Positions 40,690-53,438 of a stretch of 64,000 nucleotides of DNA are shown here, one piece after another. Made by a program: the position numbers and the translations under genes. Position 1 is the stretch's first letter, and each line of letters opens with the position of its first letter. Source of the stretch: Bacteroidota bacterium (GTDB lineage Bacteria > Bacteroidota > Bacteroidia > B-17B0 > Aurantibacillaceae); NCBI GenBank assembly GCA_021156365.1, contig JAJNDK010000003.1, forward strand, positions 124,001-188,000. The letters are read 5' to 3'. The notes beneath the pieces are model-generated. The model worked only from the letters and a program-made list of their open reading frames with translations, did no database searches and had not been told where the DNA came from.

Positions 40690-42393
40690 ATGAGTAAGGA
40701 TGCCTGGCGTTTAAGAAGATTTGATGTTCCCCGCGCCATTGAGCTGGCAAGGGAAGCCCTCCGGTATTCGAAAAACGGGAGGTATGAGCTGGGGGAAGGC
40801 TTTGCATTACGTACTTTAGGCGTCGCTCATTTTTTCCAGGAACAATACCGGAATGCATTGCCGGAGCTGGAAAAAGCCAAGATCATCTTCCTGAAACACC
40901 AGTATTACAAGGGGATCAGTTCCTGTTACCGGAATATAGGTAATATCTACACTCAAACTTCCAATTACGATAAAGCCCAGGCAAATTATGAACGGGCGAT
41001 CGATTATGCGAGGAAACTTGACGATGAGCTTTCGATAGCCTACTCTACAGTGAATCTGGGCCTGATCGAACATTTACGGGGGAATTACAAAGGAGCCATT
41101 TCTATTCTTACCGGATCGCTGGAAACAGTGAGAAAATTCGATGATAAAAATGCATTGACGGAGATCTATTTTAATCTCGGTAACAATTACCTGCAGGACG
41201 GCAACCTGGCACAGGCGGAAGATTTCCTGAATCAATCCCTGCATCTTTCGGAGGAACTGGAATATGTAAAAGGTGTTTCGCAGGCCTATACCATACTGGG
41301 AACGGTATATTACCGCAAAGGCAATGTCGATCAGGCATTGAAATATATGCACGAAGGCATTGCATCTGCACTTGAGCTCAATGAAAAACGTATTGCAAGT
41401 GATACCTACAAAACCTTAGCGGAAGTTTATAAATCGATAGGTAATTATCAGAAAGCTTTCGAATGTTACGAGCAGTATGATGAAATGCGTAAACGCCTGC
41501 AGATCCATGATCATAAATCATTAGTGGATTCGATGCACGGGGAGCTTGAAATTGAAAAGTATGCACGCGAGGTAGTAGAGAGCAAGAACAAACAGATCGA
41601 AGATGCCTACGAGCTGATCAAGCAGAAGAATAAGGACATCACCGATAGTATTAGGTACGCAAGGCATATTCAGCAATCCCTGCTGCCATCCGATAATTTT
41701 ATTTCCGAAAGCCTTTCGCAGCATATGATCTTTTACCAGCCCCGCGAGATCGTGAGTGGGGATTTTTACTGGTTCAATCAAAAGAACGGTTTGGCGTATT
41801 TTGCAACGGTGGACTGTACGGGCCACGGGGTTCCGGGTGCATTTATATCCATCGTAAGCTGTAATTGTCTGTACCAGGCTTTCCGAGAAAGTGATTTTAC
41901 GGAAGCAGGAAAAATGCTTGATCGTGTGCATGAGCTGTTCAATATGATGATCCGCCAGACCTACGAGGAATCGGCAGTAAAGGATGGAATGGATATTTCA
42001 CTTTGTATAGTCGATCCTAAAAAAGGCACGATCAATTTCGCCGGAGCCAATCACGACCTGCATATAGTAAGAGATGGAGAAATGATGGAGATCAGGGGAG
42101 ATAAGAATGCGATCGGTATTTTTATCGGCGACGAGATCCGTAATTTCACTTCCAACCATGTACAGATGTTGCCGAACGACTGTGTGTACATGTTCACCGA
42201 TGGGTACGCCGACCAGTTCGGTGGAAAATCCGGCGAGAAAAAATATTTCCGTAAACGCCTGAAAAAATTCCTGACCTCTATCGCTCACGAAGAAATGGAA
42301 TACCAGCAGCAATCACTCAAAAGAGATTTTAATACCTGGAAAGCGGATAACGAGCAGATCGACGATGTGCTGGTGATCGGGGTTAAATTTTAG
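40690..42393 (+). CDS. Cytosolic TPR-SpoIIE family PP2C phosphatase
   Basis: A 567-residue soluble phosphatase. Residues 1-260 contain about six TPR units ('ISSCYRNIGNIYTQTSNYDKAQANYERAIDYARKL', 'AYTILGTVYYRKGNVDQALKYMHEGI'; given in part). A coiled coil lies at about 265-325, then the SpoIIE domain with 'SGDFYWFNQKNG', 'VDCTGHGVPGAFIS', 'KDGMDISLC', 'TDGYADQFGG' and 'DDVLVIGVKF' with metal-binding Asp residues. There is no signal peptide or TM. The frame is open upstream to 40591 without any ATG, GTG or TTG, and TPR-like similarity seems to begin just before the ATG at 40690, so the true start could be non-standard. It is likely to act on an anti-sigma antagonist. Confidence 0.92.
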   Translation: MSKDAWRLRRFDVPRAIELAREALRYSKNGRYELGEGFALRTLGVAHFFQEQYRNALPELEKAKIIFLKHQYYKGISSCYRNIGNIYTQTSNYDKAQANYERAIDYARKLDDELSIAYSTVNLGLIEHLRGNYKGAISILTGSLETVRKFDDKNALTEIYFNLGNNYLQDGNLAQAEDFLNQSLHLSEELEYVKGVSQAYTILGTVYYRKGNVDQALKYMHEGIASALELNEKRIASDTYKTLAEVYKSIGNYQKAFECYEQYDEMRKRLQIHDHKSLVDSMHGELEIEKYAREVVESKNKQIEDAYELIKQKNKDITDSIRYARHIQQSLLPSDNFISESLSQHMIFYQPREIVSGDFYWFNQKNGLAYFATVDCTGHGVPGAFISIVSCNCLYQAFRESDFTEAGKMLDRVHELFNMMIRQTYEESAVKDGMDISLCIVDPKKGTINFAGANHDLHIVRDGEMMEIRGDKNAIGIFIGDEIRNFTSNHVQMLPNDCVYMFTDGYADQFGGKSGEKKYFRKRLKKFLTSIAHEEMEYQQQSLKRDFNTWKADNEQIDDVLVIGVKF

Positions 42394-42470: not shown

Positions 42471-44594
42471 CTAAAATTTCAACCTTACCTGTAATTTCAA
42501 CTCCGTCTTACTTGATTTATTGATCTGTGTAGGGCTTCCTTCGTTCTGGATAGTTTTGTTGGAATAAAACGTTTGCGCAACCCGCGCCCATACTTCAATA
42601 TGTTTGTTGATCGTGTAATCTACCATCAGGTATGCACGTGAGCCTTTGTCGTAGAGGGCAGGAATGGAGAAGGAGTAGAGCACATCGTTCTCATATGTAT
42701 ACACCCTGCTGTTGTAACTGTCGGTTTCGAATAATCCATAACGAGCCGTGATCTCTATCGGGGAGCCGATCTTGCGGAACACAATATCCTGGAACATGAT
42801 CGAGCCGGTTTCCCTTGGTGCATTTTGTTTGTCGTATACCACCACTTCCACACGTGAGCGCAGTTTTAAGTAAGGCAATAGCTGGAAGCTTACATTGTAA
42901 CGAAAATTCTCCTGGTTAAGGTTCACCGGTGTGTCGAACAAATATTCCGAACCGGCATCCTGTTCCTTGCTGCGCTTGCGATAGCGGAAATACATATCGG
43001 TCTTTTTGTTCGGTGTCCAGTTCAGCTGGCCCATAAAATCATTGCCTACAGTAGGACGGCTGGCTTTGTAATTGAGCCAGGGGAATTTGTACTGATCGAA
43101 AAAAGCAGTGAAGGTGAAATTCTTTGGCAATTTTGCTTCGCATCCTACATATAATCCATTTTCATTTTGCGGAAGCGTGTTCTCCGAAATAGCAAGCGCC
43201 ACCAGGTTCTGGTATTTCTTATCGAAATTGCGATACGAGGTAACAAAGGTGAATTTAGGATCGAGTGCCATAATAGCGCCCACTACCATCGCTTTGCCTC
43301 CATTGGCAGAGAAAGCGCCTTCACCGAAGAAATTGATATTCCGGAATACATACGAGAAGTCCAGTCCTGCATTCGTGTTGTTGGTTCCCCTGAAATCATA
43401 TGCGTTATAGAGCTGATCATTTACATTCAAAGGCTTGCTGAGTACAAAATGCTGCCCGGTGATACCGATACTTAATTTATTTGTTTTGTACGATACATTC
43501 CCTCCGAAAATGGTTTCGCGGATCGCATCTTTATCTTTAATCTCTCCGATCGTACGATGTGTACCCGTCATGATAATACTCGAAACCTCTTCTGCATCCA
43601 GTGCCCCGCTTATTGCAGTGTCAGCCAGCTGAACATTTGCGTCGATCATTTTGGAAGAAAAGAAAACACTGGTCTCTATTTTCCCTAACTTAATAGTTGT
43701 TGCAGCTCCACGCATAAAACGATTCTCATCTACCGAGCTGTAGGGCCGGAAGCCTGTTGCATTCCGTTTCATGTTGGCCACCGAAATGGATTTACCGAAA
43801 CCAAAACCCCTCCACATCACGAGCCCCTGCCCGAAACAAGCCTGGTAATCGCCTATGGCAAGGGTTTTAACGGAACGGATGTTGCGCAGAAAAAAATGAA
43901 AGGAATAATAATCGAAGCCTGTTTTTTTATTCAGTGAATCTATTTTCCGGAAAGGTTCACCCGCATCTTTCTCTGCAATAAATCCTACCGAAACATTGTT
44001 GCTATAACGGAAACGGAGGCGTGTGAAAATGCGGTCGGCCGATCCTAAATAATATTTGGAAGGGCTTGCTTTTAACAGGGAATCGGTGTACGGAGTATAG
44101 GCTGCCTGCTTTTCCAGCACCCGCTGAAAACGGGTAGTGGATTCGGTGCTTCCGTTCTTAAGCATTTCTTTGAACGTGAAATGAGAAGAATTAAAATTGT
44201 CGCTCACTTTCACATAAGGCAGGATCTTTTTAATGGTAATAAGGTCGAAGCCCTTGATTCCCTGCAATTCGTAGATACTGATGAGCTTTCCGTTCTTTGC
44301 AATGTGTGAAAGCAGGTTTTTTACCTGGATCTCCGTAAGAAGCCCCAGATCCATCAGCTCGTCTTTGTCGGTATTGTTGAGGTTGATCGGATGTGCCTGG
44401 TATTGTTTCAGGTTTTCGATAAGAGAAGTGTAATCGGCATTTTCATCCTGGTTCTGTTCGGACAGGAGCTCGATGTTCTGGTTCTGATCATTGTCTGCAT
44501 CATCATTTGGAACATTCACAGGTACCTGTGCAAAAGCTGTTTGCAGTATACAAAGAAACACAAGGAATGATATGTTCCGGAATCCTTGTTTCAT
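42471..44594 (-). CDS. Helix-hairpin-helix protein with predicted outer-membrane beta-barrel
   Basis: A 707-residue exported protein. It has a signal peptide (to about 22), an Asn/Asp/Gln-rich linker (about 27-55), and a ComEA-type double helix-hairpin-helix domain at about 68-128 ('INLNNTDKDELMDLG', 'ISIYELQGIKGFDLITIKKIL'). About 560 residues follow with strongly alternating aromatic/polar strands ending in 'KSSKTELKLQVRLKF', where the terminal Phe is typical of outer-membrane barrels. HhH domains of this kind usually bind duplex DNA. Only 3 bp separate it from the upstream PorV/PorQ-like gene. The barrel assignment is a pattern call; a role in DNA binding or uptake is inference. Confidence 0.8.
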   Translation of the reverse strand: MKQGFRNISFLVFLCILQTAFAQVPVNVPNDDADNDQNQNIELLSEQNQDENADYTSLIENLKQYQAHPINLNNTDKDELMDLGLLTEIQVKNLLSHIAKNGKLISIYELQGIKGFDLITIKKILPYVKVSDNFNSSHFTFKEMLKNGSTESTTRFQRVLEKQAAYTPYTDSLLKASPSKYYLGSADRIFTRLRFRYSNNVSVGFIAEKDAGEPFRKIDSLNKKTGFDYYSFHFFLRNIRSVKTLAIGDYQACFGQGLVMWRGFGFGKSISVANMKRNATGFRPYSSVDENRFMRGAATTIKLGKIETSVFFSSKMIDANVQLADTAISGALDAEEVSSIIMTGTHRTIGEIKDKDAIRETIFGGNVSYKTNKLSIGITGQHFVLSKPLNVNDQLYNAYDFRGTNNTNAGLDFSYVFRNINFFGEGAFSANGGKAMVVGAIMALDPKFTFVTSYRNFDKKYQNLVALAISENTLPQNENGLYVGCEAKLPKNFTFTAFFDQYKFPWLNYKASRPTVGNDFMGQLNWTPNKKTDMYFRYRKRSKEQDAGSEYLFDTPVNLNQENFRYNVSFQLLPYLKLRSRVEVVVYDKQNAPRETGSIMFQDIVFRKIGSPIEITARYGLFETDSYNSRVYTYENDVLYSFSIPALYDKGSRAYLMVDYTINKHIEVWARVAQTFYSNKTIQNEGSPTQINKSSKTELKLQVRLKF

Positions 44595-44597
44595 AGC

Positions 44598-45434
44598 TTA
44601 GCCCTTTTCTTTTTCTTCTTTTATTTTTCCGAACACATAACTTAGACCAACCTGTGGCGAGAAGCCAAGGATGTTATGATACGATGAGCTGAGATCGAAG
44701 CGGAGCCCTTCGAGATTCACACCGATCCCGAAAGCAGCCTGGGTAGGGTAGCTGTTCACACCTGCGCGGATGTAAAATTCTTTTGCAGGTGCATATTCGA
44801 TACCCCCTTTGAAATTGATATTGGTATAGGTGCTTTTTTCGGCTTCCGCTATCACCAGTAATTGTTTTGAGAATTTATACTGCACACCGAATTTCAGTTG
44901 GGAAGGGATCTTTTCATTGTTGTAATTGGTGATCTGCGCACGATTAGGATTGTAGATATGTGCGGCAACGGTTACCTGCTTTGACAGTTTTCCCTGCAAT
45001 CCTAACTCTACGGAGAAGGCATGTGCTTTGCCATAAATATCACCGATAGAATAGGAAAGATAATTGAGCCCTACACCTGCAGAAAAACTCTCACCTAACT
45101 TCATACCATATCCGAGCCCGGCTTTACTTTGGCGGAACATGGAATAACCGAAGCTGGTGTAGGTAAGTCCGAATGTTCCGCGTTTGATTGGCAGGGCGCC
45201 TGTAAGTGAACTATAGCCCAGTTGTTTTAACAGGAAACGATTTTCATAGTATGCACCTGCACTTATATTTTTTAGAAAACCCAGTCCTGCCTGGTTGTTT
45301 TGAGCGCTGTATACATCATCCAGTGTTACGGAAGCTCCGCCCAATGCAGCAGCTCTGGCTCCCACCGTAAAATTCTGCGCACCAAGGAAAAGTGCGGAAA
45401 AAGAAAAAAATGCAATGAGTAGTGTTCTGTTCAT
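44598..45434 (-). CDS. PorV/PorQ family outer-membrane protein
   Basis: A 278-residue beta-barrel protein from ATG 45432-45434 (an ATG three codons upstream is possible). It has a signal peptide (MNRTLLIAFFSFSALFLGAQ), then the family opening 'VGARAAALGGASVTLDDVYSAQNNQAGLG'-like segment (given in part), which is diagnostic for PorV/PorQ/FadL-like T9SS proteins. Barrel strands follow and a Lys/Glu-rich end. PorV carries T9SS cargo to the attachment machinery and PorQ acts in cargo anchoring; a specific role for this homologue is unknown. It heads the two-gene operon with the HhH-barrel gene, with a -7 element at 45441-45448. Confidence 0.85.
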   Translation of the reverse strand: MNRTLLIAFFSFSALFLGAQNFTVGARAAALGGASVTLDDVYSAQNNQAGLGFLKNISAGAYYENRFLLKQLGYSSLTGALPIKRGTFGLTYTSFGYSMFRQSKAGLGYGMKLGESFSAGVGLNYLSYSIGDIYGKAHAFSVELGLQGKLSKQVTVAAHIYNPNRAQITNYNNEKIPSQLKFGVQYKFSKQLLVIAEAEKSTYTNINFKGGIEYAPAKEFYIRAGVNSYPTQAAFGIGVNLEGLRFDLSSSYHNILGFSPQVGLSYVFGKIKEEKEKG

Positions 45435-45440
45435 GCCTAC

Positions 45441-45448
45441 CAAATATA
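45441..45448 (-). promoter_or_regulatory. -7 promoter element next to the PorV/PorQ-like start
   Basis: The minus strand reads TATATTTG, 6 bp before the ATG at 45434. This near-leaderless arrangement favours ATG 45434 over 45443, which would lie inside the element. Confidence 0.5.
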
Positions 45449-45536: not shown

Positions 45537-46121
45537 TTGCAAAAACCAAGTTTACAACACCCTGAACTGATCGACCTGATGAAGATGGCGTACTCCGCTG
45601 AGAAAGCGGCGGCATTTGCCTACCAGGGGCACGCCGGCTCGGTAAAGGACAAAGAAGCGAAGATCCGCATCAAACAAATTGAGGATGATGAGTGGGAGCA
45701 CCGGCGGGAAGTGCTGGAAATGATGAAACAATATAATGTTCCTGTTTCCCGGTGGTATGAATTCCGTTTTTATATAGTAGGAAAAATGATCTCGATGGGC
45801 TGCTATGTGATCGGTTGGTTTATGCCCTATTATTTTGCTGGCAGACTGGAAAGCGGAAATGTATGCGAGTACTTCCGGATGAAACAATTCTTTAATTCGC
45901 TCGGGATCCATGAGCATGATCAACTGCTCTACAATATGGGCATTAAGGAGAAAGAACACGAGGTGTATTTCCTCGAACAGATCAAATCAAAAAAGCTACT
46001 CCCGTTTTTCGAAAAGCTTTTTAACTGGGGCAATAAACACAGTTTCAATAATATCGACCTTGATAAAAAATACCCGGTGGAAGAATCGGATATTTATTGC
46101 AAAACGGATATAAAGAAATAG
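45537..46121 (+). CDS. Ferritin-like/COQ7-type diiron protein, probably starting at TTG
   Basis: A 194-residue protein with the E...ExxH...E...ExxH diiron pattern: E22 in MAYSAEKAAAFAYQ, E52xxH55 in DDEWEHRRE, E104 or E111, and E138xxH141 in GIKEKEHEV. A hydrophobic hairpin (about 78-100) resembles the membrane-facing helices of COQ7/demethoxyubiquinone hydroxylases. The frame is closed by TAG at 45525-45527, and the only start covering the first helix is TTG 45537. ATG 45579 would leave the first Glu at residue 8. In a bacterium probably using menaquinone, its substrate is open. Confidence 0.78.
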   Translation: MQKPSLQHPELIDLMKMAYSAEKAAAFAYQGHAGSVKDKEAKIRIKQIEDDEWEHRREVLEMMKQYNVPVSRWYEFRFYIVGKMISMGCYVIGWFMPYYFAGRLESGNVCEYFRMKQFFNSLGIHEHDQLLYNMGIKEKEHEVYFLEQIKSKKLLPFFEKLFNWGNKHSFNNIDLDKKYPVEESDIYCKTDIKK

Positions 46122-49339: not shown

Positions 49340-50968
49340 ATGGACATAGAATTTAACAAGAACGATGATATCATGCGTTTGCTGATCTCTCAGCTGGAGC
49401 AGAAACTGGCCAAAGTATATCTCGGTGGCGGAAAAGCCCGCATTGAAAAGCTGCATGAGCAAGGCAAAATGAGTGCCCGCGAACGCATTGATTACCTGCT
49501 GGATAAAGATGCTAAACGTATCGAAATAGGCGCTTTTGCAGGAGATGAGATGTATGCCGAACATGGCGGCTGTCCGGGTGGCGGAGTAGTGGTGGTTATC
49601 GGCTATATCAAAGGAAAACAATGCATTGTGGTAGCTAATGATGCTACCGTAAAAGCAGGTGCCTGGTTTCCGATCACCGGAAAAAAGAACCTGCGTGCGC
49701 AGGAGATCTCCATCGAAAATAAATTACCGATCATTTACCTGGTGGACAGTGCAGGCGTTTACCTGCCTTTGCAGGACGAGATCTTCCCGGATAAGGAACA
49801 TTTCGGGCGTATCTTTCGTAACAATGCAGTAATGAGCTCTATGGGCATTCTGCAGATCGCAGCCATTATGGGCAGCTGTGTAGCTGGTGGGGCCTATCTG
49901 CCGATCATGAGCGATGAGGCAATGATTGTGGATAAAACGGGCAGTATCTTCCTTGCCGGCTCGTATCTCGTGAAAGCGGCGATCGGCGAGACTATCGATA
50001 ATGAAACACTTGGCGGTGCAACAACACAGTGTGAGATCTCAGGTGTAACAGATAATAAATGCAAAGACGATAAAGAGTGCCTCGATAAGATCCGTGGGAT
50101 CATGGACAAGATCGGCGATTATGATAAAGCGGGTTTTGACCGGATCGAAGCTGCTAAACCAAAAAAAGAACAGAAAGATATTTACGGTATCATACCGGAT
50201 ACGAGAGACAAACAATACGATATGTTCGAAGTGATCCATCGCCTGGTGGACAATTCGGAGTTTGATGAGTACAAAGAGCTGTACGGAAAAAGCATCATTT
50301 GCGGTCTTGCCCGTATTGATGGCTGGGCCGTTGGAATTGTTGCCAATCAGCGCAAAGTAGTGAAAAGCAAAAAAGGGGAAATGCAGTTTGGTGGTGTGAT
50401 ATATAGTGACAGTGCCGATAAAGCCGCGCGTTTTATCATGAATTGCAACCAGCGAAAAATTCCCCTCGTATTTCTGCAGGATGCTACCGGTTTTATGGTG
50501 GGCTCTCGTAGTGAGCATGGAGGTATTATTAAAGACGGCGCCAAGCTGGTAAATGCCATGAGTAATTCAGTTGTTCCTAAATTCACGATCATCGTCGGGA
50601 ATTCATACGGAGCAGCTAATTATGCGATGTGTGGAAAAGCGTACGATCCGCGTTTGATCTATTCCTGGCCTACAGGACAGATCGCAGTAATGGGCGGTGC
50701 GCAGGCAGCGAAAGTATTGGTGCAAATTGAAGTGGCCAGTCTGAAAGCAAAAGGCGAAGAGATCACTCCGGAGAAAGAAGCGGAATTATTCAACAGGATC
50801 AAAGACCGTTACGACAAACAAACCAGCCCGTATTACGCAGCTGCCCGTTTGTGGACAGATGGTATCATCGATCCATTGGAAACACGCAAAGTGATCAGCA
50901 TGGGAATTGAGATGGCGAACCATTCACCTATTACAAAACGGTATAATGTGGGAGTGATCCAGACGTAG
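49340..50968 (+). CDS. Acyl-CoA carboxylase carboxyltransferase (beta) subunit, methylcrotonyl-CoA type
   Basis: Transfers carboxyl from biotin to an acyl-CoA. The 542-residue product has both crotonase-fold carboxyltransferase halves. The N-half has 'KMSARERIDYLLD', 'GGVVVVIGYIKGKQCIVVANDATVKAGA' (given in part), 'LVDSAGVYLPLQDE' and 'MGSCVAGGAYLPIMSDE'. The C-half has 'FLQDATGFMVGSRSEHGGIIKDGAK' (given in part), 'GNSYGAANYAMCGKAYDPRLIYSWPTG' (given in part) and 'MGGAQAAKVL'. The AGAYLP motif and FMVG segment favour methylcrotonyl-CoA over propionyl-CoA carboxylase. The biotin-carrying alpha subunit is not in the window. With mvaB 2 kb away, leucine catabolism is the likely role. Confidence 0.9.
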   Translation: MDIEFNKNDDIMRLLISQLEQKLAKVYLGGGKARIEKLHEQGKMSARERIDYLLDKDAKRIEIGAFAGDEMYAEHGGCPGGGVVVVIGYIKGKQCIVVANDATVKAGAWFPITGKKNLRAQEISIENKLPIIYLVDSAGVYLPLQDEIFPDKEHFGRIFRNNAVMSSMGILQIAAIMGSCVAGGAYLPIMSDEAMIVDKTGSIFLAGSYLVKAAIGETIDNETLGGATTQCEISGVTDNKCKDDKECLDKIRGIMDKIGDYDKAGFDRIEAAKPKKEQKDIYGIIPDTRDKQYDMFEVIHRLVDNSEFDEYKELYGKSIICGLARIDGWAVGIVANQRKVVKSKKGEMQFGGVIYSDSADKAARFIMNCNQRKIPLVFLQDATGFMVGSRSEHGGIIKDGAKLVNAMSNSVVPKFTIIVGNSYGAANYAMCGKAYDPRLIYSWPTGQIAVMGGAQAAKVLVQIEVASLKAKGEEITPEKEAELFNRIKDRYDKQTSPYYAAARLWTDGIIDPLETRKVISMGIEMANHSPITKRYNVGVIQT

Positions 50969-51021
50969 GACTGATTTGAAAATGTATTAATCTGAAGATT
51001 TGAAAATGAATACATACTACT

Positions 51022-51294
51022 ACAAATGCTGCCGGTGGTATTGTTAAATCTGTTAATGGTATTGCAAGTGCTGCCGATGGTGTAGCGAGTGCTGCCGGTG
51101 GTATTGTTAAATCTGTTAATGGTGTTACGGGTGCTACCGATGGTGTTATAAGTGCTACCGATGGTATTGTTAAATCTGTTAATGGTGTTACGGGTGCTAT
51201 CGGTGGTATTGTTAAATCTGTTACTGGTATTGCAAGTGCTAACGATGGTGTAGCGAGTGCTATCAATGGTGTAGCGAGTGCCATCAAAAGTATT
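51022..51294. repeat. Tandem repeat: 13 units of 21 bp
   Basis: The 334-bp gap between the carboxylase and SpoIIE genes is filled by 13 diverged 21-bp units. In one plus-strand frame each unit reads as seven residues, such as VKSVNGI, ASAADGV, TGATDGV or ASAINGV; two unit types alternate irregularly. That frame is open from 51010 to TAA at 51304-51306, but has no ATG, GTG or TTG, and TGA closes it at 51007-51009. ATG 51006 lies in another frame that ends after 13 codons. It could be a decayed or frameshifted repeat-protein gene, or a non-coding minisatellite. No other gene is seen in the gap. Confidence 0.85.
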
Positions 51295-51302
51295 GGCCGA
51301 AA

Positions 51303-53438
51303 TTAATTTATTTGTATCCCTACTACGCACACATCATCGATCTGTTCCAGTTCGCCTTTCCAATCTGAAAATGTTTTATAGAGCAATTCCCGCTGCTGCA
51401 CAAGAGACAAGGTAGAATTATCTGTCAGTAACTGATAAAGCTGTTTGTACTTAAATTTTTTTCCTTTAGGTCCGCCGAACTGATCGGCATATCCGTCGGT
51501 GAACGTGTAAACAAGATCATCCTTTTGTAGAGAGAAGGAATGCGTAGAGAAAGGAACGGAATCCTTGTCATGCTTGCCTACAGGCATTTTATCCGCTTTC
51601 AGCTCTATGATCTCCTTGCCCCTGCAGATCCATACCGGGTTGTGCGCCGCGGCATATTCTATTGTGTTTGTTTTGAAATCATACACGACGATGTTGCAAT
51701 CCATCCCGTCTTTTCCTCCTTCCATACTGCCATCTTCCGACAGCGCTTCGATCACACGCATCCTTACCAGGTCCAGGATCTTGCCGGGATCTGTGAGCAA
51801 ACGCTCGTTGATGGCTTCGTTCAGGAAGGAAATATTCAATAAGCTCATGAATGCCCCCGGAACTCCATGCCCTGTGCAATCGGCTGTTACAAAGGTAAAG
51901 CGGCCGTCGCTTAATTTCGATGCCCAGTAAAAATCACCACTTACGATCGCTTTAGGGTTGAAGAAAATAAAATAGCTGCCAAGATTTTGTTTCAGCAGGG
52001 TGTCAGTGGCAAGCAGCGCTCGTTGTATCCGGTTTGCGTAATTGATGCTGTCGATGATCTCTTTTTGTTTTTCTTCCAGCAGGGCTTTTTGCTTTTGTGT
52101 TTCCTTTTGCTGGTTATCAATGATGATGTTTTGTTTTTTTATGAGCCGGAAACGCGTAAAAATGAAATAAGAAAACACAAGTAGAATGAACAGACCGATC
52201 ACAAGGGCATAACGAACCGTTTTTTCCATACGAAGTCTGGAAGTGGCCGCATCCACTTTGGCCTCGCTGATCTTTTTTTGTTCGTGGAAACGGATGCTGT
52301 CGGCTGCAGCCTTTTTATCGTATTCAAATTGAAGGTTCAGCTTTATAAGATCTTTGCTGACATTCATTTTTCGGAGCGAATCTTCCGTCGCGTATTTGAT
52401 AACGGTTGCTTTCATCGCATTTTCGTAATCGCCCGTAGATCCATATGCTTCCATCAGGATCTCGTAACAGTAGGCTTTGTTGCCAAGGTCTTCCGGTAGC
52501 AGCCGGAGCGACTGCAGAGCCTGGCTGATCCCCGTTTTATACTGGCCTTTTTTAATGGAGCAAAAAGCAAGATTGGCCAGGGCATTGGCAGCTTCTCCTT
52601 TCAGGTTGATGTCGGTTGCGATCTTCAGACTTTTATTGAGGTATACAATGGCCGAATCATATTGTTTAAGCTCCGTAAAATACGATCCGTAATTGACATA
52701 AGCCTCCGAAAGATTATAAAGATTCCCGCCTTCGATATTGGTAAGAATTCCTTTCCTGTAGTACCAGGCAGCGCTGTCGTATTCTTTTTTCACTTTGAAG
52801 ATGATGCCCATTCCGTTGTAGCCCACTCCCAATGCATTGTTGTTTCCCGAAGCCCGTGCATTGTGTATACATTTACGCATCGCTTCCAGCGCTTTTCCGG
52901 ACTCACCCATGTCTTTATAAATAAGACCGATATTGTAATAATTATTCGAAACCGAATAGGTGTCACCTGCCTTCTCCAGGAACCGGATGCATTGAAGGTT
53001 ATAATCCAGCGCTTTCGTTTGATCTCCAAGGTCCTGGTATACAACCCCAATATTACCCAATGCAATGCCGATATCCTTTGTTCGATCCAGTTGCCGGGCG
53101 AGCGTGAGACTTTTCTGGTGGTAAAATAAAGCCTGCTTAAAATCCGTAATATTGGTATAGCAGATCGCCAGTCGCCGGTATGTAACCGTAAGTTTCGACA
53201 GCAATTTGTTCTTTTCGCCGATCCGGACCGCAATGTGGCCGTATTTAATACCGGAGTCAGGAACCGAGTTGGAATACAGCGGCCAGATCAGCGCATTGAG
53301 TGCATCCAGCTTTGTGCTATCGGGAGCATTGCTGAAGTATATGTGCCGTAGCGAGTCGATCTTTTTTTGTTGAGAAGAAGCGAGGAGAGGCAGGAAGACC
53401 AATAGAAGAGAAAAAAAATGTGGTTTGAAAATACGCAT
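51303..53438 (-). CDS. Membrane TPR-SpoIIE family PP2C phosphatase
   Basis: A 711-residue sensor phosphatase. It has a signal peptide (SLLLVFLPLLASSQ, about 8-23), periplasmic TPR units at about 60-380 ('ALGNIGVVYQDLGDQTKALDYNLQCIRFLE', 'NYYNIGLIYKDMGESGKALEAM'; given in part), one TM at about 413-433 (ALVIGLFILLVFSYFIF), a coiled coil, and a C-terminal SpoIIE domain ('SGDFYWASKLSDG', 'ADCTGHGVPGAFMS', 'KDGMDCNIV', 'TDGYADQFGG', 'DDVCVVGIQ') with catalytic Asp residues present. ATG 53436-53438 is 8 bp from a -7 element. It is the third phosphatase of this type in the window. Its stop codon touches the 21-bp repeat frame. Confidence 0.93.
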   Translation of the reverse strand: MRIFKPHFFSLLLVFLPLLASSQQKKIDSLRHIYFSNAPDSTKLDALNALIWPLYSNSVPDSGIKYGHIAVRIGEKNKLLSKLTVTYRRLAICYTNITDFKQALFYHQKSLTLARQLDRTKDIGIALGNIGVVYQDLGDQTKALDYNLQCIRFLEKAGDTYSVSNNYYNIGLIYKDMGESGKALEAMRKCIHNARASGNNNALGVGYNGMGIIFKVKKEYDSAAWYYRKGILTNIEGGNLYNLSEAYVNYGSYFTELKQYDSAIVYLNKSLKIATDINLKGEAANALANLAFCSIKKGQYKTGISQALQSLRLLPEDLGNKAYCYEILMEAYGSTGDYENAMKATVIKYATEDSLRKMNVSKDLIKLNLQFEYDKKAAADSIRFHEQKKISEAKVDAATSRLRMEKTVRYALVIGLFILLVFSYFIFTRFRLIKKQNIIIDNQQKETQKQKALLEEKQKEIIDSINYANRIQRALLATDTLLKQNLGSYFIFFNPKAIVSGDFYWASKLSDGRFTFVTADCTGHGVPGAFMSLLNISFLNEAINERLLTDPGKILDLVRMRVIEALSEDGSMEGGKDGMDCNIVVYDFKTNTIEYAAAHNPVWICRGKEIIELKADKMPVGKHDKDSVPFSTHSFSLQKDDLVYTFTDGYADQFGGPKGKKFKYKQLYQLLTDNSTLSLVQQRELLYKTFSDWKGELEQIDDVCVVGIQIN

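Follow-up and report, generated by a model that had tools for sequence, protein, structure and literature searches.

What is the function of a gene pair that joins a helix-hairpin-helix (HhH) fold to a predicted outer-membrane barrel and sets it beside a relative of PorV? Such a pair lies on the minus strand of the window, by which we mean the whole stretch of 64,000 nucleotides analysed here, and a sequence-only reading of it had proposed a DNA-uptake or extracellular-DNA-binding device with its own partner related to the type IX secretion system (T9SS). The two genes, called P1 and P2 below, and their features are:

42471..44594, minus strand: P1, a 707-aa predicted outer-membrane protein with a signal-like start, an acidic linker, a double HhH and a large predicted barrel, whose end is the protein's C-terminus, reading ...LQVRLKF.
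44211..44396, minus strand: ComEA-type double HhH of P1, residues 67–128, in which the hairpins LLT and GFD replace GhG.
42474..44024, minus strand: barrel region of P1, residues 191–707, with widely conserved motifs.
44598..45434, minus strand: P2, 278 aa from its own ATG, a short PorV-like predicted outer-membrane protein and the first gene of the two-gene operon.
45441..45448, minus strand: TATATTTG, a possible but weak Bacteroidota-type −7 promoter element ahead of P2.

Both open reading frames were found at these positions, the P2 stop and the P1 ATG being separated by three bases (AGC), in agreement with the description of a 707-residue product encoded directly after a PorV/PorQ-like gene. 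The promoter that the two genes had been proposed to share fared less well, as the five sigma-70-type sites are no excess over the shuffle mean of 6.3. A single TAnnTTTG element, the Bacteroidota −7 consensus, precedes the P2 ATG by 14 nt. One gene on each side of the pair, at 40690–42393 and at 51303–53438, encodes TPR-like repeats and, after them, a C-terminal segment; the two segments are similar and by eye resemble a PP2C/SpoIIE-type phosphatase. Overlapping minus-strand frames of short degenerate repeats (ALATP/LTDLTIPP type) occupy 50833–51330, next to where the second of these TPR genes ends, and a divergent gene at 45537–46121 shows a weak COQ7 match (E 4.5e-4, under the cut-off).

The ComEA-type double HhH, placed at residues 68–128 by the sequence-only reading, was recovered by HHH_3 (PF12836), which matches P1 at residues 67–128 with E 1.8e-5 and 25.1 bits, under the cut-off of 27. 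All 41 aligned P1 family members scanned match the same model at E ≤10 (best 8.3e-19), which rules out a mis-call or a chance match, and the ComEA model TIGR01259 matches 39 of them at E ≤1. Against this model P1 alone scores 19.3 bits and does not reach the curated cut-off of 152.35. We accept the predicted fold on this family evidence, not from P1 alone. Its assumed affinity for duplex DNA is another matter. The DNA-contacting signature of HhH domains is the GhG hairpin, and P1 carries LLT and GFD at the positions where ComEA has GhG; both glycines of the first hairpin are present in none of 82 aligned P1 family members (81 distinct), some of which retain one, and both glycines of the second in 12, so that DNA binding by the P1 HhH cannot be assumed. 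The loss is not universal, since the first hairpin of a remoter P1 relative, L131, reads PGIG (by eye). Net charge was dropped as an indicator of DNA binding because it fails to separate the P1 HhH from ComEA, two ComEA chains carrying −1 and −2 over the same stretch.

The source genome holds a second HhH gene, at G000:C9, encoding a separate three-HhH protein with the same HHH_3-type HhH as P1. By inspection this protein also has no complete GhG, which makes the degenerate hairpins of P1 weak counter-evidence to a DNA role. By domain make-up it probably corresponds to RA0C_RS02645, a Riemerella anatipestifer HhH protein that is essential for transformation according to the parts of the source drawn on here (PMC8459023); hairpin degeneracy therefore does not exclude a role with DNA. 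The same correspondence rules out P1 itself as the R. anatipestifer HhH protein.

An AlphaFold2 model of P1, built from a four-row alignment, contains 24 strands, of which 23 lie past residue 190; its mean pLDDT is 50.5 and its pTM 0.46. The large barrel that had been predicted was therefore recovered, at low confidence. The structures that the model matches are barrels of a generic kind (TonB receptors, porins, LptD, FadL, usher, VDAC and others), in a comparison that does not thereby exclude unlisted families. An outer-membrane barrel in the C-terminal region of P1 is thus supported, not proven, by modelling. The region carries the conserved motifs EKDxGE, GDYxxxFGQGL, GxHRT, TDxYDSRxYxYEND and GSGLxxIxGN; in the 41 family members scanned it is not convincingly covered by any Pfam or NCBIfam family, SprA_N has no Pfam match in P1 at E 1, and among the open-licence PubMed Central papers listed there was none on the barrel family or on the P1–P2 pair. 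A barrel with an even number of strands should have its two ends on the periplasmic side, and we expect the HhH of P1, which precedes the predicted barrel, to lie in the periplasm and not on the surface side that the sequence-only reading had allowed.

P2 matches the PorV family model (PorV_fam, NF033709) with E 4e-20 and 72.6 bits, under the cut-off of 90, and 37 of 43 P2 members match it at E ≤1e-3. The earlier assignment to the PorV/PorQ family survives as kinship: P2 is related to PorV/PorQ and falls outside the family as curated. Its structure model has a pLDDT of 26.5. In four genomes (G091, G165, G097 and G092; loci L165–L168), P2 is about 400 aa long and carries an HhH of its own at the C-terminus, after the barrel, with P1 located elsewhere in the genome. 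These fusions tie P2 to the HhH function, and their HhH, too, would be periplasmic by the same topology rule.

The P1–P2 pair is deeply conserved across Bacteroidota and is no local oddity. Profile A1 of P1 matches 278 of 392 sampled Bacteroidota genomes at E 1e-5, mostly with one match each, a rough figure that is likelier low than high, A1 having missed divergent P1s. Within the window's order, tblastn found P1 in 26 of 87 genomes, and each locus of the order that extends far enough has P2 upstream, on the same strand. Among 60 P1 loci hand-picked for phylum-wide spread, the same arrangement occurs in 43, in 38 of which P2 overlaps P1 or lies at most 48 bases from it (start codons chosen by rule); P2 was found elsewhere in the genome for 5 of the 17 remaining loci (G091, G123, G150, G266 and G357). 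We also surveyed 80 genomes, of which profile A1 had matched P1 in 47 and given no match in the other 33; in many of the 80, 32 P2 candidates were scored. Among the matches listed, P2 reached at least 85 bits in 39 of the 47 A1-positive and 5 of the 33 A1-negative genomes; a broader profile, A5, detected P1 in all five of the latter, adjoining P2 in four, so that P1 accompanies P2 in 44 of the 44 surveyed genomes (of 80) in which P2 was listed at this score. Rechecking all 33 A1-negative genomes with A5 gave 13 barrel-region matches, three of them weak (32–42 bits), and in G104 and G159 a diverged HhH gene (575 and 677 aa) sits beside a P2-like gene (82 and 42 bits). After this correction 18 of the 80 genomes are without P1, including G201, which holds a P1 remnant, and a P2 of at least 85 bits is listed for none of the 18. 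The two genes thus occur together across the phylum and the P1 model, at low confidence, is a barrel, so that neither of the outcomes named as refuting the sequence-only reading arose. In viral contigs, no P1–P2 relative was confirmed with the patterns used.

An independent line of evidence comes from R. anatipestifer, in which RA0C_RS04915, a CPR-domain barrel, and RA0C_RS04920, a DUF5689 protein, are described as essential for transformation and predicted to form one operon in the parts of the source used here (PMC8459023). DUF5689 has no match in the source genome. In the 32 class genomes of the survey, it reached at least 120 bits in 14 of the 16 genomes without P1 and in 4 of the 16 with P1, and in 17 of 18 loci (L186–L203) it is adjoined by a TonB-type barrel, B1. 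On domains and gene order, we take B1–DUF5689 for the likely counterpart of the R. anatipestifer pair. In 13 of these 18 loci B1–DUF5689 is accompanied, mostly divergently, by a gene from one nuclease cluster, which may belong to the module and of which two genes were identified as Exo_endo_phos_3 (PF19580); the available parts of the R. anatipestifer paper do not mention it (PMC8459023). Neither this nuclease (EEP) nor B1 nor DUF5689 was found near P1 in the 60 P1 loci, in L034 or in the window. Between the barrels of B1 and P1, hhalign detected no similarity (probability 0.3%).

Across the 392 genomes of the phylum, scores of the B1 profile are bimodal, with more than 550 bits in 65 genomes, all in the window's class, and within this class B1 alternates with P1. 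In the window's order (87 genomes), 24 genomes have P1 only, 58 have B1 only, 2 have both and 3 have neither, P1 absence being called by tblastn with one query (A5 was run on G003 and G012 of those genomes). The three genomes with neither are 78, 60 and 56% complete, and several of the 58 B1 genes are split or partial, that of G040 being a 234-bit fragment at a contig edge. In the class (68 genomes with handles up to G359, for which the P1 and B1 listings are both complete), 23 have P1 only, 35 have B1 only, 6 have both and 4 have neither, most P1 absences here being those of profile A1 by itself. These four are 99–100% complete, and two of them, G185 and G220, have the three-HhH protein. Fisher's test gives 5e-16 for the order and 6e-9 for the class, with kinship ignored. 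A genus-level expectation, set down before the order-wide result had been seen, proved right for 8 of 10 genera and for five of the seven newly sampled; it was wrong for genera g2 and g5, each of which holds one genome with both P1 and B1.

Kinship was addressed with a tree of SprA, made by a quick method from 30 genomes of the class and two outgroups, 32 in all, on which P1 and B1 change six times each. Six independent pairs of genomes differ in P1. In nearly all of 200 random pairings, B1 differs in the opposite direction in three to four of the six and never in the same direction (p 0.125); with kinship corrected for, the direction fits the alternation, and the result is not significant and has little power. 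In G201, an intact B1 is found together with a broken C-terminal remnant of P1 in two frames (L236:4265–4902), and G119, the sister of G201 on this tree, carries P1 and lacks B1, a pattern as expected after replacement of P1 by B1.

We give an even chance to the reading that P1–P2 is an alternative outer-membrane route for DNA import. We infer from these observations that the two proteins form a complex with DNA as its substrate, and we infer its topology and mechanism likewise. P1 and P2 would form an outer-membrane complex passing double-stranded DNA across the membrane, with the large barrel of P1 as the conduit and the PorV-like barrel of P2 as an accessory that stabilises or gates it. The periplasmic HhH of P1 would receive the DNA or dock periplasmic DNA-handling proteins, and the DNA would be handed to downstream machinery, namely the three-HhH protein in the window's class and, by analogy with R. 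anatipestifer, ComEC, ComF and DprA. In other lineages, B1 and the DUF5689 protein would do the same job.

The alternation of P1 with B1, taken together with the essentiality of RA0C_RS04915–RA0C_RS04920, lends the DNA-uptake part of the sequence-only reading independent support, although the DNA-binding signature of the HhH is mostly absent. The P1 remnant beside B1 in G201, the ComEA-type character of the HhH and the P2-HhH fusions likewise favour import of DNA. The same reading is weakened by the genomes in which P1 and B1 coexist (6 of 68 in the class, 2 of 87 in the order), by the four complete class genomes with neither, by the degenerate hairpins, by the tree test and by the dissimilarity of the two barrels, and also by the three-HhH protein, which each of the 32 class genomes surveyed has, whether P1 is there or not. 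RA0C_RS04915, or B1, may also act in transformation indirectly. In the parts of PMC8383284 used here, R. anatipestifer TonB mutants show reduced transformation, although the effect of tonBB is ascribed by the authors to iron.

Among the alternatives, the one that survives best holds that P1 is a general outer-membrane factor that transports a lipid, glycan or nutrient or takes part in its biogenesis, that its HhH serves only to dock proteins, and that the alternation reflects a coincidence of descent or a shared substrate other than DNA. The degenerate hairpins fit this explanation, as do the weak matches of some P1 family members to PsbU and GspK, HhH relatives with non-DNA roles, the lack of significance on the tree and the commonness of P1, usually with a single match per genome. 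We consider it rather unlikely, given that P1 and B1 alternate almost without exception within one family and that P1 is decaying in the B1 genome G201.

A second alternative, that P1 and P2 act in the T9SS, draws on the position of P2 in the neighbourhood of PorV/PorQ and on the genes upstream. In 26 of the 62 loci that were compared (the 60 loci, L034 and the window), the divergent upstream genes fall into one cluster, and the one member identified is PorD (DUF4835, NF052317; L088:11683–12609, divergent from P2), which leaves room for a link between P2 and the T9SS. Among the matches listed, moreover, sprA accompanies P2 (at least 85 bits) in 44 of 44 surveyed genomes, and P2 is found in none of the four of the 80 that are without sprA (76 have it). 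Against this, P1 is present in all four genomes lacking sprA, which rules out a part in the T9SS as its sole role and argues against the T9SS-specific device of the sequence-only reading, sprA is present in all 18 genomes without P1, and the alternation with a transformation module would be left unexplained. A role in the T9SS therefore seems distinctly unlikely to us. That P1 binds extracellular DNA at the surface, for adhesion or nutrient capture and with no import, is very improbable: the ComEA-type fold of this predicted outer-membrane protein would suit it, but the HhH is expected to be periplasmic and its hairpins are degenerate.

Import of DNA through P1–P2 would matter because the corresponding step is missing from current accounts. 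In Porphyromonas gingivalis, the outer-membrane step of DNA uptake is described as unclear, with no T2SS or T4SS identified, a pilus-like structure not involved, and a ComEA-domain protein and ComEC essential (PMC11532111, 2024, in the parts used here). P1–P2 is a concrete and widely conserved candidate for the missing outer-membrane DNA entrance in Bacteroidota, and its alternation with B1 shows which genomes suit testing. If true, the DNA-import reading gives a function to a barrel family, detected in 278 of 392 genomes, for which no Pfam or NCBIfam model was found. More broadly, we suggest, with a little less than an even chance of being right, that Bacteroidota possess two unrelated and interchangeable outer-membrane DNA gates working without a type IV pilus, an ancient P1–P2 and a TonB-type B1–DUF5689 that has repeatedly replaced it; the P2-HhH fusions would then be cases in which the partner, too, gained a periplasmic DNA-receiving domain.

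Several known systems resemble parts of this pair. Annotated relatives of P1 and P2 occur in Parabacteroides distasonis (WP_121956131.1 and WP_121956132.1), with P2 directly upstream as in the window; P1 is annotated there as 'helix-hairpin-helix domain-containing protein' and P2, which scores 170 bits against profile A6, as 'hypothetical protein', so that a function is assigned to neither. ComEA and the three-HhH protein of Bacteroidota share the HHH_3-type double HhH with P1, to which P1 adds a barrel of more than 500 residues and non-canonical hairpins. SprA, which associates with PorV, likewise combines a large barrel with a PorV-family partner, whereas P1 has no SprA_N match (Pfam, E 1) and is present in genomes without SprA, and P2, at 278 aa, compares with 402 aa for the solved PorV chain. 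The R. anatipestifer module RA0C_RS04915–RA0C_RS04920 differs in its partner, which is a DUF5689 protein and not PorV-like, in having no HhH, and in the barrel of its counterpart B1, which is unlike that of P1; like P1–P2, it is a two-gene outer-membrane module, and this counterpart, B1–DUF5689, is the one that alternates with P1.
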